Shown: positions 2,147 through 28,918 of the stretch, in pieces
Layout: each line of letters begins with the position of its first letter
How positions within the stretch are numbered: position 1 is the first letter of the stretch
Program-made: the position numbers and the translations under genes
Source: Nitrospira sp.
GTDB taxonomy: Bacteria > Nitrospirota > Nitrospiria > Nitrospirales > Nitrospiraceae
Length of the DNA: 64,000 nucleotides
Direction: 5' to 3'
Assembly: GCA_030444405.1 (NCBI GenBank)
Contig: JARFPM010000010.1
Coordinates: forward strand, 1-64,000
The notes under the pieces: generated by a model
What the model saw: only the letters and a program-made list of their open reading frames with translations
What the model was told of the DNA's origin: nothing
Databases searched by the model: none

Positions 2147-2989
2147 ATGGGACTGAAATCATATCGTCCAACGTCTCCAGGTCGCCGAGGCATGACGGCC
2201 GTGGTGACCGAGGAGTTAGCCGACAAGAAGCCAGAGAAGTCGTTGACCGCCTTTCATCTTCGGAGTGGAGGGCGGAATAACGATGGTCGGATGACCGTTC
2301 GGTTTCGTGGTGGAGGGCACAAGCGACTCTATCGCACAATCGATTTCTTGCGCGATAAAGTTGGAGTTTCTGCGCGGGTTGAAGCGATTGAGTACGATCC
2401 GAATCGATCTGCAAGAATCGCGCTCTTGAAGTATCGGGACGGTGAGAAGCGGTATATCTTGGCTCCTGTCGGGCTGAGCGTGAATGATGAAGTACAATCC
2501 GGTCCACAGGCGGAGATCCGACCAGGGAATGCACTGCCATTGGTCAATATGCCTCTTGGTACGACCATCCACAATCTTGAATTGAAGGCCGGAAAGGGAG
2601 GGCAGTTGATTCGAAGTGCTGGCGGGTTCGCGCAGGTCATGGGGCGGGATGGCGATTATGTGCAGGTGCGTCTAAAGTCTGGAGAAATGCGTAGAATTTT
2701 AGGAATGTGCATAGCGACTGTCGGACAAGTCGGGAACGTCGATCATGAGAACGTCAGCGTTGGGAAGGCTGGGCGGAGTCGTTGGAAAGGGAAAAGGCCA
2801 CATGTGCGAGGGGTCGTGATGAACCCTGTCGACCATCCTCACGGAGGTGGCGAAGGAAAGTCTGGCCAAGGGAACCCGCACCCAGTATCTCCATGGGGTC
2901 TTCCGACCAAGGGCTACAAAACCAGGCAGAACAAGAAGACGGACAAGTTCATTATTGCTCGACGTAAGTCAGGAGTTCGCAATGCCTAG
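2147..2989 (+). CDS. rplB: 50S ribosomal protein L2
   Basis: The 280-aa product starts [17 protein letters not shown], with [14 protein letters not shown] and the C-terminal signature [20 protein letters not shown], which contains the conserved histidine near the peptidyl transferase centre. L2 is a primary 23S rRNA binder. The frame is open 7 codons upstream, but ATG 2147, preceded by GGTGGGAG, gives the usual start. The 3' end overlaps rpsS by 8 bases in another frame. Confidence 0.97.
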
Positions 2990-3269
2990 ATCGGTAAGTA
3001 AAGGGGCGTTTGTCGACGGTCATCTTCTCAAGAAGGTTGAGCAGATGAATGAGACCAAGGACCGTAAGTTGATCAAAACGTGGTCTCGACGGTCGACGGT
3101 CGTTCCCGACATGATCGGCCATACCTTCGCCGTTCATAACGGTAAGAAGTTCATTCCGGTGTTCGTGACCGAGAACATGGTCGGTCATAAACTCGGCGAG
3201 TTTTCGCCAACTCGGTTTTTCAAGGGACATGGCCAGGCCAAGACGGAAAAAGCTGTCGCTCTTAAGTAG
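2982..3269 (+). CDS. rpsS: 30S ribosomal protein S19
   Basis: The 95-aa product ([20 protein letters not shown]) has the S19 signature [46 protein letters not shown] split across the middle and end. S19 binds 16S rRNA in the 30S head together with S13. The frame runs further upstream inside rplB, but only the ATG at 2982 gives a family-like start. The 88-base gap to rplV holds nothing recognisable beyond a weak ribosome site. Confidence 0.96.
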
Positions 3270-3357
3270 AAAGGTCAATGTATTGGCTCATCGCCAATGT
3301 GTGGTGCATAGCGACGTTCATTGATTGCGGGGAGCTGATCGGTAACAGGGTTTGAAG

Positions 3358-3714
3358 ATGACTGAAGCACATGCGGTTCTGAAATTTGTTCGTGTTGCGC
3401 CTCGGAAGGCCAGGCCGGTGATCGATATGATTCGCGGGAGGCAAGTGCCAATGGCACTAGCCATCCTGAAGCACACCCCTCGTCATGCTGCGCGGGTGGT
3501 CGAAAAAATCGTTCGTTCCGCTGTGGCCAATGCCGAGCTGAAGGAGATGGGCGATAGCGAATCGATGGTCATCTCCAAGGCCTTCGTTGATTGCGGTCCA
3601 ACGTATAAGCGTGTACGTGCCAGGTCGATGGGCCGGGCCAATGCAATTCAAAAGCGCACGAGTCACATTACCGTCGTCGTGACGGCACCGGAAACTCAGG
3701 GCAAGAGGAAATAG
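3358..3714 (+). CDS. rplV: 50S ribosomal protein L22
   Basis: The 118-aa product has the L22 pattern [24 protein letters not shown] and the C-terminal hairpin region [31 protein letters not shown]. That hairpin lines the exit tunnel; changes in it give macrolide resistance in other species. A TTG two codons upstream (3352) is an alternative start, but ATG 3358 fits the family better. rpsC follows after 30 bases. Confidence 0.95.
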
Positions 3715-3744
3715 CTCATTTCTTTCTATTGAGGCATACAAGGC

Positions 3745-4416
3745 ATGGGTCAAAAAACACATCCAATCGGCTATCGACTTGGCTACAACTATACCTGGAG
3801 TTCTCGCTGGTATGCCGGAAAAGATTACGCCAAACTGCTCCATCAGGACGTCAAGATTAGAAGAATGGTTAAAGCACGGCTGTATCATGCCGGTGTATCG
3901 AAAGTCGAAATTGAACGCTCTGGCGATCAAACCAGGGTGATCATTCATACGGCTCGACCCGGCATCATCATCGGGCGCAAGGGGGCTGAAGTCGATAAGT
4001 TGAAGGCCGACCTTGAAAAGCAGTATGGGGGACAAGTCTACATCACGGTCAAGGAAATCAAGAAGCCTGAGCTTGATGCTCAGCTGGTTAGCGAAAATGT
4101 CGCAACTCAGCTTGAGAAGCGCGTAGCCTTTCGGAGAGCCATGAAGCGCAGTGTTCAGTCCGCCCTGAGGCTTGGTGCTCAGGGTATCAAGATCATGGTG
4201 GCTGGTCGCCTGGGTGGTGCCGAAATCGCTAGGACGGAGTGGTATCGAGAAGGACGTGTGCCGCTGCATACGCTCCGTGCTGAAATAGATTATGGTTTCG
4301 CCGAAGCGCACACGACGATGGGGCAGATTGGGGTGAAGACCTGGATTTACAAAGGAGAGCTTCTTCCCGTCCAGCCTATCAAGGCTGAATCATCTTTAGA
4401 TCGACGGTTTGGGTGA
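3745..4416 (+). CDS. rpsC: 30S ribosomal protein S3
   Basis: The 223-aa product starts [20 protein letters not shown]. It has the KH RNA-binding motif around [22 protein letters not shown] and the C-terminal block [37 protein letters not shown]3 forms part of the mRNA entry channel and has helicase-like activity there. It is full length and lies between rplV and rplP as in all S10 operons. Confidence 0.97.
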
Positions 4417-22735: not shown

Positions 22736-23083
22736 TTAGGGAGCCGTCCGGGTTCCGTCGGTACGCTCGTCGTTCACGGCCGTGTCTCCCACGCTCTTTA
22801 TGTCTGGCGTGGCGGCGCCGGATGGCGCCTGACTTCTCGCTTTCGCGGCTTGGGCCCGGTAGCTGGGAATCGGGAGTTCCAGAATCACGGCATGATGAAC
22901 CACCCGATCCACGGCCGCCGCCGTGGTCATGGGATCCTTGAAGATCTGGTCCCACTTGCTGAAGACGAGATTACTGGCGATCAGCACCGACCGGTGTTCA
23001 TAGCGTTCGGCTAGCAGGGTGAACAGTACTTCCATCTCTTCGCGGTCCTGTTGCACATACCTGAGGTCATCAAGAATGAGCGT
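22736..23083 (-). pseudogene. IstB ATPase C-terminal remnant fused to IstA
   Basis: The - strand frame continues from the IstA C-terminus (TTTFRQAYD) directly into TLILDDLRYVQQDREEME and LLAERYEHRSVLIASNL. These are the Walker B (ILDDL) and sensor I region of IstB, the AAA+ helper of IS21 transposition, followed by FSKWDQIFKDPMTTAAAVDR. The N-terminal half of IstB with Walker A is absent. The joint looks like a deletion at a short similarity. Confidence 0.8.
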
Positions 23084-24302
23084 GTCATAGGCCTGGCGGA
23101 AAGTCGTGGTCGGAACCAACGTGGCTTGATAGCGATACCGGGCGAAGGCGCCGGGCTTGTGCACCAGCGCCCCAATCAGATGCCGATAGTCGATCGAGGC
23201 CTGCCCGCGCCGCCGGTCGATCGTCGCTAGAGCGTCACCGGCATGCCGTACCTCCAGTCGTTCGGAATAGAGGCGCACCGCCACCGTTTCGCCAATGAGC
23301 CGCGAGGCAACGGAGTAGACATTATGACCGACCCGAATCATCGAGAAGCGATTGACCATCACCCGGAGCACGCGGAAATCCTCAAGACGCAGGGCTGGGA
23401 GGGTGTGCATGTGCGGGAGTTCTTCCTGGAGTGTCGCCTGGCGTCCTCGATTCCGCCCGGCAAGGATTGTCCGCAGAAACTGCGCATAGTGGGTCTGGCT
23501 CTCAAAATCGCGCTGGCCCCGGAGCAGCAACGCCTACTCGACTGCCCGCTTGAACCGGTGATGGGCTTGTTCCACATCGCCATTCTCATGGCCACGACCT
23601 GGCGGGTTCGCATCCGACCGCACCCCATAGTGTTCCAACACCTGTCGATACCGCTCGTTGAAGGTCCGGCCGCCGTCGCGCAGGTCATGGGTGGCGGCCG
23701 ACAAATTGTCCGTCCGGTGGATGGCTGGCACCCGTCCCAGTTCCCAGACCGCCGCTTGAAGCCCGGGGATCAGCGCCTCGAAAGTCTCTGACACACCGAG
23801 CGCGCCGGTCTCCCAGTTCGAGTACGGAAGGACGAAGTGATAGAAGCGGTGATCGAACGGCTTCCCGTTGAGCGTGATGCCCCAGTGAGCCCATGACCTT
23901 GAAATCGCTCTGCGCGTATTCGCCCGGTCGGTGAACTTGCGGAAACATCACCTCCCGTTCTGGTCCGTGGGTGGCCCGCCAGCGCCGGATCCGGCGCTGC
24001 AACGTGCGGAGTTGGCCGTCGGTCGAGGGCACCTCGGGCCGTCCCCGCAGGGTTTCGAAGATCGTGGGGCCCTCGAGGCCAGGCGCCTAGACCAACAGCG
24101 CTTCAATCTCCGGCCACAACGCCGCAAAGGGATCGGGGCGTGTCCGATACTGGCGCGGGACTTTCCGCTGACTGGGGAGTGGGCCCGTCCGATACCGCCG
24201 GGCCGTGTTCTCACTCATCCCTGACCGCATGGCTGCTGGTGAAAGTGGTGTGCCGGTGCCACGTACCATCATCAGTCTCCTTACTTGCCGGTGGGTAACC
24301 AT
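23084..24302 (-). pseudogene. IstA transposase remnant of IS21-like element
   Basis: Pieces in different frames on the - strand together cover IstA. From 24302: MVTHRQVRRLMMVRG and GMSENTARRYRTG (HTH). Then PSTDGQLRTLQRRIRRW and PGEYAQSDFKVMGS, with the catalytic-core start. From 23794: ALIPGLQAAVWELG, TDNLSAATHDL, FNERYRQVLEHYG and GHENGDVEQAHHRFKRAVE. Finally, in the frame open from 23530, the C-terminal FSMIRVGHNVYSVASRLIGE region. There are several frameshifts. The last frame runs straight into istB sequence at about 23083. Confidence 0.8.
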
Positions 24303-24410
24303 TCACCATCCCTTGGTAGAGCGAAGAGGGTACAGGACCGGCGGTGAGGAGGGGTGGGCACCCCGCAGATCTAATTGTCGTTACCCCGCAATGCTAATTG
24401 TCGCTAAACA

Positions 24411-24628
24411 GAGGCCGTGTACGACTCGCACGCCATGCGGCAGTTCGTCGGGATTGATCTGGGCCGCGAGCCCGTGCCTGATGAGACGACGATCTGTACA
24501 TGTCGGCATCTGCTGCAAACCCACCAGTTGGGGAAACCGCACTTTCGGCGGATCGTGGCGTCTCTAGCCGCGCAGGGCATGACGGTCGGGCGGGGGGCCA
24601 TCGTGGATGCGGCCATTATTGACCCCGG
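24411..24628 (+). pseudogene. IS5 transposase, piece 3
   Basis: From the right-hand GAGGCCG copy the IS5 frame resumes with EAVYDSHAMRQFVGIDL and EPVPDETTICTCRHLL, which contains the first catalytic Asp region (PDETTI) of the IS5 group. It runs on to GRGAIVDAAIID before the IS3-like element starts at about 24629. It joins pieces 2 and 4 without loss of family order. Confidence 0.85.
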
Positions 24629-24659
24629 TTGTCAATAGTGGACGCCATGAATGGCAGCC

Positions 24660-25126
24660 TCACGCTGTCGGCTGTTGGCGGACCCATTGCTGGGCAAACG
24701 CAGCGGGCGAGCGATTCCCAAGCCGAGAATGCCGCCGCTGCCGGTTATAGAAGAGCTCGCTGTACTCCGCGATCTCGCGCCGAGCCTGCTCACGGGTCTC
24801 GTCGCGACGGTGATGCACCCGCTCATTCTTCCGCGTTCCCCAGACACTCTCCATCGGCGCGTTGTCATAGCAATTCCCCTTCCGACTCATGGATGGGATC
24901 ATGCCGAACTGCCTCAGCGTTGCTTGATACACCTGGGCACAATATTGAGCCCAGCGAGCGGAGTGATGAATGAGCCCCGGGGCTGGACGCTTGGTGTCGA
25001 TGGCCTTCATCAGTGCACCCTGCACCAAGTCCGTCGTCATCCGGGCGTCCATCGCATGGCCGACCACCTCCCAGGTGGAGCGATCCTTCACGCCAGCCAG
25101 ATACCGCCACCCTTCTACGGTCGGCA
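24660..25126 (-). CDS. IS3 orfB transposase, 3' exon
   Basis: Starting with TG at 25126-25125, the frame reads PTVEGWRYLAGVKDRSTWEVVGHAMDARMTTDL in sequence, then FGMIPSMSRKGNCYDNAPMES and FYNRQRRHSRLGNRSP, the retroviral-integrase-type core and C-terminus of IS3/IS150 transposases. The conserved second catalytic Asp (usually HSDRG) is replaced by Ala (HHSARWAQY). The Glu region (APMES...KNE) is present. It joins exon 1 in frame if the intron is removed. Confidence 0.85.
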
Positions 25127-25177
25127 GTGGAGTGAGAGACCGGGCGTAGTCGCACTATCTCCCAGTCTCTCCTCCCC

Positions 25178-25212
25178 GAACCGGACGTGCACCTCTCAGC
25201 GCATCCGGCTCT
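25178..25212 (-). ncRNA. Group II intron domain V
   Basis: On the - strand the 34-base hairpin GAGCCGGATGCGCTGAGAGG continues TGCACGTCCGGTTC. Its stem pairs GAGCCGGA with TCCGGTTC, with a GAGA-type tetraloop and internal bulge. This is the conserved catalytic domain V. It begins just downstream of the RT stop codon (25217), as usual. Confidence 0.9.
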
Positions 25213-25216
25213 CCAT

Positions 25217-26733
25217 TCAAGCGTTGCGTAACGCAAAAGCCACGTCAGCGTAACGCGATTCGAGAAACGTGCGATGCTCATCGCGAATCAGGTATGGGTT
25301 CCCTTCCGGGGTCCGCCACCTGAACTGACCTTTGTGGCTGGTGACCAGGCGTCGAAGCGCCTGTTCGCCATACCACCCACGACTATTCTGTCCCTTCAAT
25401 ACCCACGTGGTGGCACGTCCCAGTTCTGGGGCCCGGACGTGTTCGCGCATCAGGCTCGGGAATCCTCGCCGATACTTGCGCGTGAGCCAATGTCCGAGCT
25501 TCCAGAAGACGGTCCGGTCCACTCGGTTAAAGATGGTCGCCGTATAGTCAGTGTATCGATAGAAGTTCGCCCACCCCGAGAGTTTCCGGTTCAGGCGTTC
25601 CATCAGGTCCATGTGGTTCACGCTATAATTGCCAGACAGTTCCTTGACCAGTTTGGCCGTGAAGCCTCGGTACTTCTCCCATGGGATCGTCGTGACCGGT
25701 CGCAGATGACCTCGTGGTCCCCGCTTGCGAATGATGCGGTGGCCGAGGAAGACCACGCCGTCATTCACGTGGGTGATATGGGTCTTCTCCATATTCAACG
25801 TGAGTGTGAGCGTCCCTTCCAGAAACGTCCGGCACGCTTTGCGTATCGCCTCAGCATGCGCGCGGGTTCCTTTCACGACCACGACGAAATCATCTGCATA
25901 GCGGCAGTAGGAGACGCCTGGTTTCCACTGCCGGTTCTCTGGTACAGCAATCGGCCGCTGTTTGAGAATGCCGAAGTTCCATGCCCATCGGTCCTTACGC
26001 ACCTTCTGGCTCAGGTAGTTCGCCTCCATCCAGCCATCGAATTCATGCAACATGATGTTGGATAGCAACGGAGAGATGACTCCCCCTTGTGGAACGCCTT
26101 CGCTCGCGGCGCAAAAGAGACCCCGATCAACACACCCTGCTTTGATGCACGTCCACAGCAGGGCCAGGAAGCGCTGATCAGCAATACGTTTGCGGACAGC
26201 TTTCAGCAGCAGGCGGTGATGGACAGTCTCAAAGTAGCTGGCGAGGTCGCCCTCGATCACCCAGCGACCCGCCGCTCTTTGCTCGTCACTTTCCTGCAGC
26301 TGCAATTTGACCGTTCGTATCGCATGGTGCACACTTCGGGCGGGCCTGAAGCCATAGGATGCCCGATGGAAATCACTCTCCCATATCGGCTCCATGGCCA
26401 TCAGCATCGCTCTCTGGACCACTCGATCCCGCAGACTGGGGATCCCTAAGGGCCTCAACGTGCCGTTCGCCTTGGGGATGTACACGCGCCGTGCAGGGAG
26501 CGGCGTATAGGAGCCCGCTAACAATTCAGCACGTATCGTCGCCAGTTCCTGGTGAAGGTTTCCCGTCATCATGGCCTTGTCGACCCCATCGACACCCGGC
26601 GTTCGCGCACCCCTGGATGCGAGCGTGATGCGCGCGGCTTCTGCCAGCCATGTTCGATCAGCAATCAGCTCAGGAGTCGATCGAACTTACGTTCGGGGTT
26701 CTCCGTTGACCACGTTGCCAGCTTGCGTTGCAT
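25217..26733 (-). pseudogene. ltrA: Group II intron reverse transcriptase/maturase, frameshifted near N-terminus
   Basis: From ATG 26733 the product starts MQRKLATWSTENPERKFDRLL and meets a TGA. A second frame then carries LIADRTWLAEAARITLASRGARTPGVDGVDKAMMTGN and the rest, so one base is missing at about 26660. The long part (to 25217) has the RT blocks: RRVYIPKANGTLRPLGIPSLRDR, YGFRPARSVHHA, GDLASYFETV, EGVPQGGVISPLLSN and the catalytic YADD in CRYADDFVVVV. The maturase X domain includes LSGWANFYRYT. It ends shortly after GQFRWRTPEGNPYL without an HNH endonuclease. Apart from the frameshift it looks intact. Confidence 0.88.
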
Positions 26734-27419
26734 TTCACTGATTATCAAAGGTCTTCACCTCATTGTGGTCAGGTAATCCGCCACACACGCCGCTCAAACT
26801 GCCCACCCTTCGCCATGTGGCCGGCTTTCCCGACCGCGGACTACTACGAGGGCTCCGTCAACGTGTACCGCGTCGGGGGACACACTCCCTTGTCATCGGT
26901 CATCGGTACACGCCTTCCCCAGTTCACATGCTGGACTTCACACACGGGCGAGGTTGCCTATCGCAGTCTTTCTCCTTGCGTGCCGCAAGTCGTCGCGAAC
27001 GTCATGGTCTAGCTACGCGCTCCCCATGACTCCCTGCTGGCCAGCGTACATGTCCAGCCCGCATTCGCCGTTCCCGTCCATACGTATGACGGGCACGGAT
27101 CCGCGTCCTGCCTGGCAAGCGGTGTCGGCAGGGGTGACATTTCAACCCTCAGATGCGTGTCAATAGGTGTGTGTTCCTCAACCGTCCCATGTTCAGCCTA
27201 GAGGCGCATTTTGGCGTAACCGCTTCGCCGCACGCCCCGTTTCCTGCGGACTTCGTCACCTTGCCAGTGTCCGGCAAGTCACCGCCGCTTCGGCTCACTC
27301 CTTCTCGTAGCAGAGGGAGGGTATGCTCGTCATTGCCGCACTCCTTCATCGAGCCATGCATTCCAGACATGCTCAAGCAACTCAGCCCCAGACAGGTGGG
27401 CTTCGTTGGCTGGGCGTAC

Positions 27420-27813
27420 TGTAGGTAATATCGGTGCCCCACGCCTCATTCGGTCGCCTGGTGGCCAAGGTCTGAGCCAACACGTTTTCCACTACCGGCA
27501 GCGCAGGCGTCGAATCCGTGGTCGTCGTGAACCGACGGACTGGTTGACAACGCAGTCCCAGTTTCTTGCGCAGTCGGTTGATACGCCCGACCCCAGCCGG
27601 GAACCCGTCGGCACGCAATTCTGCGTGGAGCCGCTCTGGGCCGTAGGTCTGCCGCGTGCGTATCTGCGCGGCCTGGATCGCCACTTCCAGCCGCGCGTTC
27701 TCCTGGGCGCGTTTCGAGGGGCGGCTGGTGCGCCAGGCATCGTACCCGCTTCGGGACACGTCAAGGACCCGACACAACAGACGCAACGGATACTGGAGAC
27801 GCAGCGTCCTCAT
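27420..27813 (-). CDS. IS3 orfB transposase, 5' exon
   Basis: ATG 27813 overlaps the orfA stop (ATGA). The frame reads MRTLRLQYPLRLLCRVLDVS, then GYDAWRTSRPSKRAQENARL, the HTH_21 region (YGPERLHAELRADGF) and the start of the integrase core NEAWGTDITY with the first catalytic Asp. It runs to A at 27420, the last exon base. With the 3' exon the spliced gene is exactly 287 codons including stop (394 + 467 = 861 bases), a normal OrfB length. Confidence 0.87.
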
Positions 27814-28127
27814 GAGCGCGTACCGGGCCGCTGCGCCTTCGCAAAGTACGCGGTGGTTTTTTTTAGGATGTCACGCTCCATGCGTGCTTCAGCGAGATCG
27901 CGCTTGAGCCGAGACACCTCGGCCTCCAGATCCGTCACGGGCCGTCGGCACTCGCCCAGCGTCGCGAGCCGGCCCTGCCGGGCTCGACACACCCAGCGCT
28001 CGAGAGTCTTGCCCGACATGGTGAGACGTCTGGCTGCCTCCGGAATCGCCAACTTCTGTTCCAGGACCAGCTGCACCGCTTGTTCACGGAACTCCTTCGT
28101 ATACTGCTGTCGTGGTAATTGCTCCAT
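27810..28127 (-). CDS. IS3-family OrfA (HTH transposase subunit)
   Basis: The 105-aa product starts MEQLPRQQYTKEFREQAVQL, has the HTH_Tnp_1 helix-turn-helix (LAIPEAARRLTMSGKTLERWV) and ends in a leucine-zipper-like coiled coil (VTDLEAEVSRLKRDLAEARMERDILKKTTAYF). A run of eight A on the - strand (27864-27857) about 50 bases before the stop is a fitting slippery site for the -1 frameshift that makes OrfAB in this family. Intact. Confidence 0.88.
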   Translation of the reverse strand: MEQLPRQQYTKEFREQAVQLVLEQKLAIPEAARRLTMSGKTLERWVCRARQGRLATLGECRRPVTDLEAEVSRLKRDLAEARMERDILKKTTAYFAKAQRPGTRS

Positions 28128-28185
28128 CCCCCACCTCCAGACCTCAGATCATAGGTTGAAGGCGTCCACTTTTTCGAGCCTAGCA

Positions 28186-28728
28186 CATATTGCGGCGCCC
28201 CGTGCGACGAAGAAGCGCCAGCAGGAGCGGGATCCAGAGAGGCATCAGACGAAGAAAGGCAACCAGTGGTACTTCGGCATGAAAGCTCACATTCGGGTAG
28301 ACAGTCGGACCAAATTGATCCACTCCGTGGCAGCCAACGCGGCGAATGTACATGACAGTCAGGTGTTGCCCGAGCTGCTGCATGGGCAGGAGACCCGCGT
28401 GTGGGGCGATGCGGCCTATAGAGGGCAGCGCGAGGTGATCCGGCTCCACGCCCCCAGTGTCGCCAAATGGATCCAGACCAAAGCCCATCGCCATCGGCCT
28501 CTGAGCGAGGCAGAGCGCGTCTGCAACCGCACCAAGTCGAAGGTCCGCGCCAAAGTCGCCCATGTGTTCTATGTGATCAAGCAGATCTTTGGGTTTGCCA
28601 AAGTGAGGTACCGCGGGCTGGTGAAGAATACCAATTGGCTCTTCGTCGCCTGCGACTTGGCGAATCTGTACGTGGCGCGCCGGCGTCTGTTGGCGGTTGT
28701 CGAGCGGGCGTGGGTGCGAACCAGGTAG
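28186..28728 (+). pseudogene. IS5 transposase, piece 4 (C-terminal half)
   Basis: The IS5 frame resumes AAPRATKKRQQERDPERHQTKKGNQWYFGMKAHI, which includes the second catalytic Asp region (GMKAHIRVDSRT), then SVAANAANVHDSQVLPELL and VWGDAAYRGQ. It ends with the Glu region NRTKSKVRAKVAHVFYVIKQIFGF and ARRRLLAVVERAW before TAG 28726-28728. It is long and nearly intact. In family members the motif reads KVEHIFGVIKR; here E to A (KVAHVF) removes the likely catalytic glutamate. Confidence 0.85.
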
Positions 28729-28918
28729 GGGCGACCCGACAGCGGGCGAACCTCGATCAGACGCTCTCGGACCATCGGATTCCCACCTGATTGCCCGCGT
28801 TGATCATCCCAGGAACTGATTGCTCAGCGAAACCGTGAATTAATAAGACCTTCCTTAGGTTGTTCTTAGGGTAGCAGCCATCGTTTTCCTACCGTGCCAC
28901 CCACTTCCGGCCGCTTCC

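Follow-up and report, generated by a model that had tools for sequence, protein, structure and literature searches.

The 64,000-nucleotide stretch of Nitrospira DNA analysed here (the window) carries a group II intron in the transposase gene of an IS3 element. We consider it very probable that this intron is a copy of a mobile, endonuclease-less lineage, shared with an E.c.I4-like intron of E. coli (ORF class A), and that it retrohomed into the IS3 gene with the codons of a D-x-T-Y motif as homing site. That introns of this family splice and retrohome is inferred from sequence comparisons, set out below together with the anatomy of the element. Coordinates are collected in Table 1.

Anatomy of the intron and its host elements

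Read on the minus strand, the intron starts with GTACGCCCAG at 27419 and ends with CTCCAC at 25127. Its terminal AC agrees with the group II consensus (5' GUGYG ... AY 3') and its 5' end reads GUACG. The Rfam model of domains V and VI (RF00029) matched with 61.6 bits and the match terminates exactly at 25127, while reverse transcriptase (RVT_1, PF00078) and maturase (GIIM, PF08388) domains lie inside the intron, with the NCBIfam model group_II_RT_mat (TIGR04416) above its cut-off. Approximately 15 blastn homologues align over the full length (1-2293) and have different flanks, so both ends are fixed without recourse to the host reading frame. The initial sequence-only reading, which had proposed a group II intron with precisely these ends, is thereby corroborated on both counts. 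Its suggestion to fold domains I-VI with covariance models succeeded in part: domains V and VI matched, but the Rfam D1-D4 models gave no match to the intron, so domains I-IV are based on covariation and homology and not on a modelled fold. The predicted branch point is a bulged A in the fold at 25133, the 7th nucleotide from the 3' end. A domain search of the intron protein found no endonuclease domain and no domain after GIIM.

Joining base 27420 to base 25126 yields the sequence ...TDITYMPTVEGW... within an intact OrfB of 286 amino acids followed by a stop, and the joined protein matched the IS3 transposase model, as expected if exact excision restores the frame. An intron-free IS3 from another genome of the same genus (locus L085) aligns across the junction over 930 nt at 93.9% identity with no gap, and 11 more intron-free relatives in the genus also span it (12 in total). 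The proposed exon junction thus withstood the comparison with empty sites that the sequence-only reading had itself put forward and on which it could have failed. The terminal sequences of the element, TGTGCTAGG and GGGGTCA, are common to L085 and almost identical at locus L004 of another Nitrospira. With its orfA and orfB, TG...CA ends and 3-bp duplication the element has the features of the IS3 family, except that the DDE triad is not intact, the second Asp being replaced by Ala. Judged by its sequence, which is 94% identical to the intact L085, it is a decayed family member by descent and no exception to membership.

The IS3 element is in turn inserted in an IS5 transposase gene. A TAT duplication borders the insertion, a related IS5 (L128) is continuous across the same site, and the boundaries are backed by intact IS3 and IS5 relatives; the three-level nest of intron in IS3 in IS5 is thereby upheld. 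The order that had been suggested for it, with the intron entering an IS3 already within IS5, was not sustained. Other Nitrospira contain IS3-plus-intron units (L004, L003 and L102) whose resemblance to the window extends no further than the IS3 ends, and the unit at L004 has a 3-bp duplication of its own; the last two nesting steps could thus have taken place in either order. Elsewhere in the same genome (C46, locus L002), a related IS5 has an empty IS3 insertion site and lies beside an IS3 fragment. On the left, the IS5 of the window is abutted, and apparently truncated, by an IS21-like element at 22736-24405 on the minus strand, which has broken frames, an IstB domain and, at 24360-24405, terminal repeats of 23 bp.

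Table 1. Positions in the window of the intron, its host elements and the predicted interacting motifs
Feature	Position	Strand	Details
Group II intron	27419-25127	-	2293 nt; 5' GUACG ... CCAC 3'; Nitrospira
IS3 orfB exon 1	27420-27813	-	ends ...GTDITY plus 1 nt; NF033516 on joined protein
IS3 orfB exon 2	24660-25126	-	NF033516 on joined protein
IS3 orfA	27810-28127	-	PF01527, NF033516
Whole IS3 with intron	24620-28187	-	ends TGTGCTAGG...GGGGTCA; matches with L085 and L004 reach these ends
RT/maturase frame 1, broken	26665-26733	-	22 codons from ATG, then stop
RT/maturase frame 2	25217-26686	-	remaining RT (YADD) and maturase domain; PF00078, PF08388, TIGR04416
Domain V	25179-25213	-	Rfam alignment
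Domain VI	25127-25178	-	fold; 3' end of TACTCYAC type kept in homologues
Intron nt 3-4 (A, C)	27416-27417	-	likely epsilon half of epsilon-epsilon'; covariation
Intron nt 169-170 (G, U)	27250-27251	-	likely epsilon' partner; covariation
EBS2 AUGUC	27136-27140	-	intron 280-284; partner exon -13..-9 (GAYAU, with catalytic Asp codon)
EBS1 UGUACG	27045-27050	-	intron 370-375; partner exon -6..-1 (CCTACA in window)
IBS2 GATAT	27428-27432	-	exon 1
IBS1 CCTACA	27420-27425	-	exon 1
Codon GCT (Ala)	24957-24959	-	replaces second catalytic Asp of transposase
Target-site duplication TAT, left	24617-24619	.	L128 comparison
Target-site duplication TAT, right	28188-28190	.	L128 comparison
IS5 transposase 5' part	24411-24619	+	NF033581; element truncated on left
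IS5 transposase 3' part and right end of similarity	28188-28858	+	NF033581; L128, L129, L130

Insertion codon, exon pairing and movement across the lineage

Homologous introns were collected by RT similarity alone and only those with readable ends were counted. About 75 introns (52 with both ends and 25 with the 3' end only) are nearly all inserted at one codon phase, almost always in DDE transposases, after base 1 of the codon that follows D-x-T-Y, the motif of the first catalytic Asp. The exon bases G at -13 and A at -12 are invariant in the 52 introns. By their scores, the transposase hosts belong to the IS3, IS481-like and IS6 families, and the introns occur in several bacterial phyla. Two hosts (L010 and L019) look unlike transposases; TDITC is still found in L010 and the Asp codon in L019.

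The exon-binding sites were placed by covariation over the 52 introns. EBS2 forms Watson-Crick pairs at -13, -12 and -9 in 52/52. At -11, where the Asp codon can vary without changing the residue, its invariant G faces C in 29 introns and U in 23. Two introns borne by IS6 elements (L012 and L022) are altered on both sides at -9/-10. Across the family, EBS1 pairs well at -6, -4, -3 and -2; at -1 and at -5, the last base of the Thr codon, pairing is poor and mismatches are common. In the window, EBS2 forms 5/5 pairs (one wobble) and EBS1 pairs with the exon end at 5/6 positions (UGUACG at 27050-27045 with CCTACA), so that the EBS1 partner called for by the sequence-only reading was found. An alternative EBS1, AGGTGA at intron positions 159 and 660, was rejected for its odd exon offset (-9..-4) and its absence from the covarying columns, and 370-375 was preferred; candidates for EBS3 at 266 and 385 each failed on one exception.

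By these pairings, EBS1 and EBS2 read the D-x-T-Y motif itself: EBS2 pairs with GAY-NN and EBS1 with the next C-N-TA-Y-N, a G facing the synonymous Y of both the Asp and the Tyr codons. The RT/maturase would normally help the intron to splice out and so restore the mRNA of the transposase; as a lariat RNP, the intron would then reverse-splice into other transposase genes.

Comparison of introns with their exons bears on how the shared codon came about. In Rhizobium sp. SL86, two introns (L041 and L042) are 100% identical over 2253 nt and lie in two different transposases whose 5' exons have no detectable similarity; in Novosphingobium, the introns at L036 and L082 are 99.96% identical and their exons dissimilar. 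Between the window and L004, introns are 93.6% and IS3 exons 77-81% identical, whereas the exons of the intron-free L085 and the window are 94-95% identical. The intron thus moves between hosts, among its relatives also recently, and by these identities it moved between IS3 hosts after the hosts had diverged. Such figures are difficult to reconcile with an old unit of intron and IS3 that transposes as one and owes its shared codon to vertical inheritance with the IS and not to homing. The IS3-plus-intron units with IS3 ends in several Nitrospira, including the one with its own duplication at L004, would fit such a unit, but introns much closer than their hosts, identical introns in different transposases and hosts covering IS3, IS481-like and IS6 argue against it; at family level it is contradicted. 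We regard it as quite improbable.

Undirected insertion, with IS genes serving as abundant safe targets and the codon a coincidence, draws on the fact that group II introns are frequently located in IS elements (PMC3522654). It predicts neither the one codon phase found in essentially all homologues of several phyla nor an EBS pairing that follows the codon site; the site data refute it and we give it almost no weight. Retrohoming to the D-x-T-Y codons is the reading that we retain.

A distant group II intron (L105, RT 36% identical) was also observed in an IS3 transposase of a Nitrospirota genome (G278), a few bases upstream inside the same D-x-T-Y motif. It is apparently an independent lineage that arrived at the same target.

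The GUACG start and known relatives

The GTACG start had been regarded as a rare variant that might affect the first step of splicing. It is instead clade-wide: the GTACG clade spans Nitrospirota, Burkholderiales, Acidithiobacillus and Paenibacillaceae, and on the sequences compared GTACG is the norm in the clade of the window intron and fixed there. Nucleotide 170 matches it, A3 occurring with U170 in 23/23 A3 introns, and every G3 intron (GTGYG relatives) has C170. Mapped on the RT tree, A3/G3 and nucleotide 170 changed together a single time, so the 23/23 are not 23 independent events. The neighbouring pair is U4-A169 in the E. coli intron and C4-G169 in other introns, a second, separate co-change. 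Covariation of nucleotides 3-4 with 169-170 fits an epsilon-epsilon' interaction and is suggestive of it, if not strong statistically.

E.c.I4 is reported to be a class A group II intron, a class without endonuclease domain (PMC3552965), and to home into IS629, IS911, ISEc16 and ISEc31 (PMC3522654). The intron at L083, carried by an ISEc31 of E. coli, occupies the same transposase codon as the window intron and falls inside its well-supported RT clade, the two RTs being 65% identical; a copy with at least 80% coverage was present in 1865/5426 complete E. coli genomes. L083 fits E.c.I4, a match made via its host element and the literature and not via a reference sequence. The window intron resembles E.c.I4 and S.f.I1 (class A; E. 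coli, Shigella) in its codon (that of L083), in being endonuclease-less and in its location in an IS3 transposase, E.c.I4 being reported to home into several IS3 elements. The E.c.I4-like L083 differs in starting with GUGUG and not GUACG, and E.c.I4 is reported in IS3 elements, whereas the family of the window intron is also found in IS481-like and IS6 transposases. By description, RmInt1 of Sinorhizobium meliloti is likewise endonuclease-less and homes into an insertion sequence, but belongs to another ORF class (D) and uses another IS. Ll.LtrB of Lactococcus lactis (type IIA) also targets a conserved gene of a mobile element and its splicing restores a mobility protein; unlike the window intron, it has an endonuclease domain and its target is a relaxase gene. 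On these comparisons, the window intron adds one member to an already known type, probably the E.c.I4-like class A.

Two of the collected introns were themselves interrupted by another group II intron. Both cases, L012:5991-7989 and L022:6009-8007, are from Burkholderia sp. OK233 and sit in IS6 transposases: a second intron of 1999 nt, which encodes an RT of its own, separates domain V from domain VI of the outer intron exactly at their boundary. These are apparently natural twintrons. A homologous intron in Pseudacidovorax (L007) contains a 1490-nt insertion (2780-4269) with a 467-codon frame and inverted-repeat-like ends.

State of the window copy and meaning for the lineage

The RT frame of the window copy is broken near its start by a 1-nt deletion, all inspected homologues having one extra nucleotide between 26669 and 26668; the sequence-only reading had overlooked this break. 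The second Asp of the DDE triad is Ala in the window, but Asp in intron-free relatives (12/12) and in two relatives that carry an intron. No other GIIM maturase was found in the genome (assembly rated 99.6% complete), and the draft of 170 contigs holds only one full intron copy. With its maturase frameshifted and its host transposase lacking a catalytic Asp, the window copy is probably an inactive relic, provided that the draft assembly is correct, and the earlier idea that splicing keeps the host IS3 functional becomes doubtful. Should the deletion and the Asp-to-Ala change be assembly errors, or be complemented, the copy could still be active; the source is a draft genome, and apart from these differences the two frames of the RT are open, as is the spliced OrfB. 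Against this are two independent defects, both at conserved positions, the missing second maturase and the single full copy, and we consider activity unlikely.

For the lineage as a whole, we lean toward a dedicated parasite of DDE transposases, whose RNA pairing would read the first catalytic Asp through its codons, a target that transposases can hardly change, and would tolerate synonymous variation through G-Y wobble and by leaving a third codon position free to mismatch. Neither homing at the DDE motif nor the site rule, the range of IS families and the tolerance of wobble in the pairing was found stated in the openly readable and searchable literature; an earlier description may exist elsewhere. 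In the surveys of 2013-14 (PMC3552965, PMC4244168), class A had three members that were nearly identical, and the homologues described here widen this little-sampled class to dozens in several phyla, with a concrete insertion rule, the catalytic-Asp codons of DDE transposases. If the proposed reading is true, wobble and third-position mismatch would allow a single lineage to pass between IS3, IS481-like and IS6 elements and across phyla. With the insertion rule, recognition of a protein-conserved motif as target becomes testable, and these introns take their place as parasites of insertion sequences.
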